This document shows, in pieces, positions 55,894 through 58,230 of a DNA stretch of 64,000 nucleotides. Positions within the stretch are counted from its first letter, which is position 1. Every line of letters begins with the position of its first letter. The notes below the pieces were generated by a model. The model saw only the letters and a program-made list of their open reading frames with translations. It did no database searches and was not told the DNA's origin. The position numbers and the translations under genes are program-made. The stretch is from Tepidiformaceae bacterium (GTDB lineage: Bacteria > Chloroflexota > Dehalococcoidia > Tepidiformales > Tepidiformaceae): positions 434,001 to 498,000 of the forward strand of contig OY282446.1 in assembly GCA_958295975.1 (NCBI GenBank), written 5' to 3'.

Positions 55894-56011
55894 CCGGTGG
55901 TCGGTGGTCGGTGATCGGTGGCCGGTGGCCGGTGGCCGGTGGTCGGTGGCCGGTGGCCGGTGGCGGTGGCCGGTGGCCGGTGGCCGGTGGCCGGTGGTGG
56001 GTGATCGGTGG
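55894..56011. repeat. Heptamer tandem repeat (YCGGTGR), about 17 units
   Basis: Consecutive 7-bp units, mostly CCGGTGG with TCGGTGG and TCGGTGA variants. One unit lacks a base (55964-55969) and one reads TGGGTGA (55998-56004). It fills the gap between convergent genes and is neither coding nor CRISPR-like. Confidence 0.9.
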
Positions 56012-56018
56012 TGGGCCG

Positions 56019-56666
56019 CTAGCTGATGACCTCAATGTCATCGCAGCGCCAGACGGGTTCCTGATCGGGAACGGCAACCCCACGCAGAAAGCAACGGACG
56101 AGATTACCCTTCTCAATCCCGGCGGATGCCCGCATGGATGTTTCGACGAAGAACGTGAAACTGAAGTCATCCACATCACCCAGCGCGCCCGCGTGTATCG
56201 TGAGCTGGTCGAACTGCCCCTTCCCCAGTTCCCCCAGGAGCGCCGCGCCCATAGCCGTCGCTGGGATATCAAACCGCCGGTACAGGTCCACGGCGGGAAT
56301 GAACTCGCGAACAACGCCAGTCTCGTCCGCCTCAAGACCTTCGTAGGGAATCTGGCGATTGATCCGCGGCTGCAGCGGCTTCGGTCGGCGGGCAGCCTGC
56401 CGGATACTGCGCGCATACGCAGGATCGAGACGCAGCGTCGTCATCGACGCCTCAAGGCCACGGGCAAGGGCCTCCTTCCCGCCCACAAATTCGATGACGC
56501 GCTCATACGTGATGTGGTCACCGCAACGGTGCTGCGGCCACGGGTCTCCAAGCGCTTCGAAGAAAACCTTCGACCCGCAATCGCAGGAGAAGTAGAACAC
56601 GTCCGCATGGCAGATACGGCAGGTCGTGGGGTAGGTGCGCGTGCGGCACCCGTCGCCGTGATACAT
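56019..56666 (-). CDS. Hypothetical protein with N-terminal Cys cluster
   Basis: 215 residues from ATG 56666 (a GTG at 56678 is possible). The N-terminus carries C-R-I-C and C-D-C-G-S-K-V-F-F, then H-R-C and H, a probable zinc ribbon, followed by basic helices and a beta-rich C-terminus. No family recognised. It is less GC-rich than most neighbours, and lies 19 bp after the selenoprotein gene, so it may be recently acquired. Confidence 0.6.
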   Translation of the reverse strand: MYHGDGCRTRTYPTTCRICHADVFYFSCDCGSKVFFEALGDPWPQHRCGDHITYERVIEFVGGKEALARGLEASMTTLRLDPAYARSIRQAARRPKPLQPRINRQIPYEGLEADETGVVREFIPAVDLYRRFDIPATAMGAALLGELGKGQFDQLTIHAGALGDVDDFSFTFFVETSMRASAGIEKGNLVRCFLRGVAVPDQEPVWRCDDIEVIS

Positions 56667-56685
56667 CAACCCCGCCACGTCCGGC

Positions 56686-57252
56686 TCAGCGGCGGGGATG
56701 GGCGGCGGGCACGTACGGGTCGTCGAGTCGTTCGCCCCAGACGACCGCGCCCGCCTCGTCGAAGTTGAGGATGCTCAGGTTCTCGGCGTCGATGGGGTCG
56801 TCCGTGCCGAGGGCCACGGACAGCTTCTGCGTGCTCCACTTCGACATGTCCAGCATCAGCTCCACCAGCTGCGCCTCCGTGAAGTGGGCGCGCGCCTGCG
56901 CCCGCAGCTCCGCGCCGATGGCGCCGGGCGCGGTCACGAAGGCGTCGACCAGCCGCAGCGCGACCTTGTGGCGCTCCGGCAGATCGCTCTCCTCGTAGCG
57001 GTCGATCTTGGCGGCCATGTCCTCGTCGAGGCCGTTGTCCCGGGCAACGCCCAGGCGCAGGGACATTCAGGTATGGCACTGGTGCTGGCGGGCGCAGCGC
57101 AGCCGCACCAGCTCGGTGGTGACGGGATCGATCCCGCCGAGGCGCATGACGGCGTCCTGGTAGGCGCCGATGGCCGCGCCGAGCGCGGGCGCGACGGGGC
57201 GCTCCCCGGCGGCGGGATCGGGCAGGCGGCGTTCGCGGACGATGGCGGTCAT
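56686..57252 (-). CDS. AhpD-like (carboxymuconolactone decarboxylase family) selenoprotein, Sec62
   Basis: 188 residues when the in-frame UGA at 57067-57069 is read as selenocysteine. Upstream part: V-R-L-R-C-A-R-Q-H-Q-C-H-T-[UGA]. Downstream part continues in the same frame as M-S-L-R-L-G-V-A-R-D-N-G-L-D-E, the usual helix after the AhpD redox motif. Sec therefore replaces the second Cys of CxxC, giving C59-H-T-U62. A SECIS-like hairpin lies at 57039-57055. Such enzymes use the pair in thiol-dependent peroxide reduction. The gene overlaps its upstream paralogue by 4 bp (ATGA). ORF callers would split it into 57067-57252 and 56686-57066. No selenocysteine genes are in the window to confirm the machinery. 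Confidence 0.85.
57039..57055 (-). promoter_or_regulatory. SECIS-like hairpin for UGA decoding
   Basis: In the mRNA, CCUGGGC and GCCCGGG form a 7-bp stem (one G-U pair) with apical loop GUU. The loop begins 18 nt after the UGA and its first base is G, both expected in bacterial SECIS elements. A competing 5-bp stem is possible but weaker. Confidence 0.75.
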
Positions 57253-57722
57253 GCGGATTCCCCTTCCGGCGCGAGGACCGCGCGCAGGCCCAGCGCCAGC
57301 CGCTGGTGTTGGTCGAGGGCGAGCAGGGCGCTCACGAAGGCGCGCGCCCCGGCGGGCGTGAGGTGCTCCAGCAGGGCATCCGCGTCGGACTGCGTGACGC
57401 CGGCCACGTCGGCGACGAACTGCTCGGTGAAGGCGAGGCAGGCGCGCTCGCGCCCGTCGAACTGGGGCGAGGAGGGCCAGTCGCGCACGGCCGCCGCCTT
57501 CTCCGGCGGGAGGGAGGCGGCGGGCGCGGGGCGGGCCAGCCCGGCGGCGTCGCCCTGCAGCATGGCGATGCGCAGGCGGCAGAGCTCCAGCAGCTCCGCG
57601 TCGAGTTCGCGCCAGAGCGCGCCGTGCATCCCGGCCACGACCTCGCGCACCTCGGGGGCGAAGCGCGCGAGGCGCTCCTCCAGGTCGGGGGCGATCAGGC
57701 CGGAGGGGGCGTCGGCGGTCAT
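57249..57722 (-). CDS. AhpD-like paralogue without redox cysteines
   Basis: 157 residues of the carboxymuconolactone decarboxylase fold: L-L-E-L-C-R-L-R-I-A-M-L near residue 45 and the C-terminal F-V-S-A-L-L-A-L-D-Q-H. Where redox-active relatives have C-x-x-C after the R-L-R-I helix, this one reads Q-G-D-A-A-G-L. It may be a structural partner of the selenoprotein, whose start codon it overlaps. ATG 57722 lies six bases after TACCGT. Confidence 0.75.
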   Translation of the reverse strand: MTADAPSGLIAPDLEERLARFAPEVREVVAGMHGALWRELDAELLELCRLRIAMLQGDAAGLARPAPAASLPPEKAAAVRDWPSSPQFDGRERACLAFTEQFVADVAGVTQSDADALLEHLTPAGARAFVSALLALDQHQRLALGLRAVLAPEGESA

Positions 57723-57728
57723 GGGGCG

Positions 57729-57734
57729 ACGGTA
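57729..57734 (-). promoter_or_regulatory. -10 element TACCGT, leaderless start
   Basis: On the minus strand TACCGT ends 6 nt before ATG 57722, the head of the selenoprotein operon. Confidence 0.45.
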
Positions 57735-57753
57735 CGAGCGCGCGTGGGGCGCG

Positions 57754-58230
57754 TCAACCACGTTGGGGCGAGGACATATCTTTAGCCTGCCGTTTCTGCG
57801 CCGTGACGACGCTGGCCTTAACGGCTCGCGGAAGATTCACCACGAGCACCTCGATCCGGAGGCGCCGAAGCGCAGCCGCTCTCCAACTGTTGCCTTTGAA
57901 CGGGGCAGCGGCATCCTCATCAGAGAACGCCAGGATGGCACGGCACCCCGGGGGATCGCACAGGACCGAGCGCGCCAGCATCAGCTTCAGCGCATCGTTC
58001 ATAACCTTCAGCAGCTGAGCGCCTTTCGACGTTCCGACATGGGCCCACGCCTCACAGAGGATAGGCGGATCAGGCGCATAGCCGTCGATCTCCATCGCCT
58101 TGGAATCACTGTCGAGAGCGATGGATTTCTTCTCAAGCTCGACGCCAAAACGCTTACCGACGGCCGCGAGGATGTAGCGCTCAGCCGCCTGCTGCTCGCT
58201 ACTGTCGCTCGCGGTCCTCGACTTCGTCAT
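57754..58230 (-). CDS. Hypothetical protein, possibly restriction-endonuclease-like
   Basis: 158 residues. The core I-D-G-Y-A-P-D-P-P-I-L-C-E-A-W-A-H-V-G then S-K-G-A-Q-L-L-K-V resembles small proteins with a PD-(D/E)xK-like core, but the catalytic Lys is not certain. The gene is less GC-rich than neighbours. ATG 58230 overlaps the stop of the enoyl-CoA hydratase by 4 bp, so it is read with it. Confidence 0.55.
   Translation of the reverse strand: MTKSRTASDSSEQQAAERYILAAVGKRFGVELEKKSIALDSDSKAMEIDGYAPDPPILCEAWAHVGTSKGAQLLKVMNDALKLMLARSVLCDPPGCRAILAFSDEDAAAPFKGNSWRAAALRRLRIEVLVVNLPRAVKASVVTAQKRQAKDMSSPQRG

Follow-up and report, generated by a model that had tools for sequence, protein, structure and literature searches.

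A selenoprotein gene of the CMD/AhpD-like family, almost certainly with selenocysteine at its redox site, and its overlapping Cys-less partner gene in a Tepidiformaceae genome

The window, i.e. the whole 64,000-nucleotide stretch of DNA analyzed here, contains on its minus strand a single frame of 188 codons, running from an ATG at 57252 to a TGA at 56686, whose sole interruption is a TGA at 57069-57067. The interruption leaves two ORFs in a common frame, 57067-57252 (61 codons plus the TGA) and 56686-57066, for which the preliminary description gave the exact coordinates and frame. When the UGA (57067-57069) is read as Sec, the gene (56686-57252) encodes a CMD/AhpD-like protein of 188 residues, as indicated by the frame, the Pfam match, and the orthologs. 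This protein includes E47-LVRLRCARQHQ-C59-H-T-U62-MSL-R66, and the UGA is found at residue 62, exactly where the CxxC motif of CMD/AhpD proteins has its second Cys. A bSECIS-type hairpin occurs at 57039-57055, and a second minus-strand gene (57249-57761), which the preliminary description had missed, lies directly upstream and overlaps the start of the selenoprotein gene in the word ATGA. It encodes a CMD-fold protein without a Cys pair, referred to below as the partner. Three TGA codons in the whole window qualified as candidates with coding-like flanks on both sides, and the other two resemble gene junctions. The whole window was also scanned with Rfam, without any match, which is unsurprising given how short a bSECIS is.

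The Pfam CMD domain (PF02627) covers residues 22-80 across the UGA (E 2e-07, 31.4 bits versus a gathering cut-off of 23) and does so ungapped, consistent with the earlier proposal that the UGA falls at the second Cys of the redox motif with no gap in homology. The predicted structure, a model of moderate confidence (pLDDT 68), is matched by Foldseek to 7xw1 and 2ijc with E about 1e-5, which points to the AhpD-like all-helical fold. The best sequence and fold matches are PA0269 (2ijc, 7xw1), Atu0492 (2gmy), and the debrominase Bmp8 (6ohi), all of which have CxxC where the window protein has CxxU. PA0269 and Atu0492 also have a His after the motif, which is an Arg in the branch of the window protein. 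The active site of AhpD from M. tuberculosis follows the pattern E-x(11)-CxxC-x(3)-H; the window protein retains E47 and C59-x-x-U62 but has an Arg in place of the His. This R66, which stands at the histidine position of CxxCxxxH in the alignment to 2gmy and 2ijc, is invariant in this CMD branch. Since the canonical histidine is an Arg, AhpD peroxidase activity should not be assumed, and we file the protein as CMD/AhpD-like, not as AhpD itself. The sole NCBIfam model matching the selenoprotein, NF053654 ('YciW-related (seleno)protein'), does so with 29.9 bits versus a cut-off of 310, indicating that the selenoprotein is not a member of NF053654.

Orthologs with 70-77% protein identity occur in eight congeneric genomes (Dehalococcoidia/Chloroflexi MAGs), and the same UGA is present in all of them. 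The TGA is therefore not a lone sequencing error, which bears on the possibility, raised in the preliminary description, that resequencing would give TGC at 57067-57069. The gene is under purifying selection on both sides of the UGA, with dN/dS of 0.05-0.19 downstream and similar values upstream. More distant relatives, aligned at residue 62 as the preliminary description had proposed, have Cys at the Sec position, namely G145 (TGC), G012, and the mycobacterial relatives. We thus observe a UGA where homologs have Cys, its conservation in related genomes, and selection downstream of it, by which bacterial selenoproteins are recognized. A search of 393 genomes of the class listed 51 matches to the protein, of which 48 contain one TGA, so that in Dehalococcoidia this CMD branch seems to have Sec as a rule. 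In the same genome, three more CMD genes are each interrupted by a single in-frame UGA at the corresponding CxxU site. Two further CMD genes, at G000:C1:1498985-1499356 (L041) and 1473212-1473517 (L042), combine an in-frame TGA at this site with a SECIS-like hairpin.

The hairpin starts 11 nt past the UGA (57055-57039) and consists of a 7-bp stem, CCTGGGC/GCCCGGG, including one G-T pair, and a GTT loop (GUU in the transcript), whose G is the 19th nucleotide past the UGA, leaving 18 nt between the UGA and the loop. The bSECIS model specifies a stem of 4-16 bp, a loop of 3-9 nt, a G within the first two bases of the loop, and a distance of 16-37 nt from the UGA (PMC13188914). The loop of 3 nt, the stem of 7 bp, the first loop base G, and the 18-nt spacing all fall within this model, an agreement that is not significant alone. 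Indeed, a rule-obeying stem of at least 7 bp follows 12% of the local in-frame positions and occurs in 10% of synonymous recodings, so that the hairpin alone is weak evidence. The geometry given in the preliminary description and its fit to the bSECIS rules are both correct, and folding the sequence after the UGA yields the hairpin as described, but the improbability by chance that was claimed for it does not survive this local frequency, and the folding z-score of -0.08 corresponds to an average energy. We rejected hairpin rarity as evidence on both of these grounds, given that 10-12% of comparable GC-rich coding positions qualify.

The statistical weight comes instead from comparative data. 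We considered the 68 codons whose amino acid is invariant and at least fourfold degenerate in the nine orthologous genes. Fourteen of these 68 codons are identical in all nine genes, including all six hairpin codons (+4 to +9; hypergeometric P 2.7e-5), and the codons +3, +10, +12, and +13 that flank them are variable. The hairpin of the window gene is invariant across the orthologs and consequently has no covariation of its own. Fourteen sister Sec-CMD genes share a common, strongly covarying 8-bp hairpin, whose loop lies two nucleotides further on than that of the window gene. In their ungapped alignment, 94.6% of the cells pair and 36 two-sided changes are observed versus a shuffled mean of 11.6, where the choice of sister sequences that fold in this register inflates the percentage paired, though not the two-sided changes as such. 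Two-sided changes occur in all eight pairs, and the first G of the loop is invariant.

The preliminary description had made its reading depend on selA, selB, selC, and selD, and all four are present in the 2.4-Mb single-contig genome: selA at C1:211873, selB at C1:1400647 (an ORF of 620 aa), the tRNA-Sec gene selC at C1:967938 with anticodon UCA, and selD at C1:1262122, with an in-frame TGA within. SelD itself is probably a selenoprotein, because a single in-frame TGA interrupts its gene here (G000:C1:1262122-1263051, L047) as well as in 16 of the 18 genomes searched.

Taking these data together, the apparent stop codon is almost certainly Sec at the redox site of the enzyme. A nonsense mutation, a pseudogene, or a sequencing error would be the simplest account of a single in-frame stop, but the same UGA in nine genomes and the purifying selection downstream of it refute these explanations, to which we give next to no probability. 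Termination at the UGA followed by reinitiation has somewhat more in its favor, even if we consider it very improbable: an ATG directly past the UGA (UGAAUG), kept in all nine orthologs, could start a protein of 126 residues after a 61-residue ORF, with no Sec involved. Nevertheless, there are sister genes with UGA at the same codon and no following ATG, the Cys relatives are contiguous proteins, the cut would split both the active-site motif and the helical bundle, and the conserved silent sites of the hairpin would be left unexplained.

Decoding of the UGA as Cys or another amino acid rather than Sec is just as improbable in our view. The relatives do have Cys at this position, and Cys insertion at Sec UGA codons occurs in some systems under selenium scarcity. 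On the other hand, the genome encodes the full Sec pathway, and UGA is the ordinary stop codon that ends both the selenoprotein gene and the partner gene. The latter observation excludes a global reassignment, and code reassignment was rejected on this basis.

The best explanation of the whole, which we hold with high confidence, is a CMD/AhpD-like selenoprotein with Sec62 inserted through SelB and the hairpin, a probably redox-active U62, and a Cys-less partner that is probably translationally coupled. Judging from the machinery, the hairpin, and the conservation, SelB carrying Sec-tRNA(UCA) would bind the hairpin past the UGA and direct Sec to position 62, and the product would fold as an AhpD-like helical bundle. 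In AhpD chemistry, the second Cys of CxxC is the reactive one. By analogy, U62, which occupies this site, is probably the nucleophile attacking a peroxide or a disulfide and then forming a selenenylsulfide with C59 as the resolving residue. The upstream partner would be produced by coupled translation and would then assemble with the selenoprotein into a hetero-oligomer. The neighboring genes, encoding a P450, a ferredoxin-like protein, an enoyl-CoA hydratase, an SDR, and a luciferase-like monooxygenase, suggest oxidative catabolism as the context.

Profile comparison (98%) identifies the partner as a distant CMD homolog; it has the AhpD fold, and LQGDAAG takes the place of the CxxC motif. The ATGA overlap with the selenoprotein start is present in all nine orthologs, and the two genes are probably translationally coupled. 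In a class-wide profile search, each of the 22 members of the partner subfamily (bounded at E 1.7e-19 or better) immediately precedes a CxxU gene of the same orientation; the profile included one second-type partner, and a less biased single-sequence search gave the same pairs in the genus. Because this tandem arrangement is invariant, the two proteins probably assemble into a hetero-oligomer, with a structural or substrate-binding role for the partner, and we infer that this complex would act as a peroxidase or a disulfide oxidoreductase. At another locus (L045, G000:C1:1655006-1656009), a second Sec-CMD gene (CGYU) has a similar CMD neighbor upstream, with CxxE, and is followed by a 426-aa ORF that resembles a Rieske-type ring-hydroxylating dioxygenase, as named by eye from its sequence. 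At locus L078 (G019:C191), the partner reads GCAYD at the CxxC site (CxxD), and it is possible that this is an intermediate in the loss of the redox pair.

The mycobacterial CMD genes L064 and L065 encode Cys homologs 35-40% identical to the selenoprotein, with CxxC where the window gene has CxxU. In Mycobacterium branderi (L065), the CxxC gene shares an overlap with a CxxE gene, similar to the tandem in the window. The M. ulcerans plasmid protein (L064) combines a CMD domain with an extra N-terminal region that bears a weak resemblance to the partner (one comparison gave E 9e-4). That the partner and the CMD domain are fused in the Mycobacterium protein P0003 is only suggestive: the similarity is weak, profile comparison placed the partner on the CMD half, and Pfam recognized neither half. 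We tentatively hypothesize, rating it at somewhat less than an even chance, that Sec-CMD proteins and CMD proteins that lost their redox cysteines constitute an obligate pair. Such a selenoenzyme/pseudoenzyme hetero-oligomer would have persisted through duplication in Dehalococcoidia, and it would have Cys parallels in mycobacteria.

In 2005, a Sargasso Sea study already described selenoproteins with CxxU, both CMD-domain (PF02627) and AhpD-like ones (PMC1088965). The GOS survey of 2008 found CxxU in 70 PF02627 sequences ('AhpD-like 2') and in 299 COG2128 sequences ('AhpD-like 1'), the latter having CxxU within the AhpD superfamily like the window protein (PMC2398784), and a 2026 review lists such proteins (PMC13188914). 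The window selenoprotein thus belongs, as an addition, to an already published class, and its novelty was overrated in the preliminary description. The Sargasso Sea and GOS PF02627 proteins share with it the Pfam domain, Sec at the second CxxC position, and Cys homologs elsewhere; as far as a comparison by description goes, those papers deal with single proteins, whereas here the host genus is identified and a CMD partner lacking the Cys pair is invariably present. The literature searched, outside of which most subscription papers fell, contained no account of this partner, and no paper joining AhpD with a pseudoenzyme or SAR202 with a selenoprotein. The conserved partner is a lead on the role of these common, functionally uncharacterized environmental selenoproteins. 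Gene callers using the standard code split the selenoprotein gene into two ORFs, so that its active site is hidden, and they treat three more paralogs of this genome and most of the relatives within the class likewise.

The stretch that separates the selenoprotein gene from the MFS gene (55894-56685), including a hypothetical ORF at 56019-56678, is absent from the congeners, which carry a second MFS copy in its place. The end of this stretch is tandem-repeat-like, around 55900-56000.
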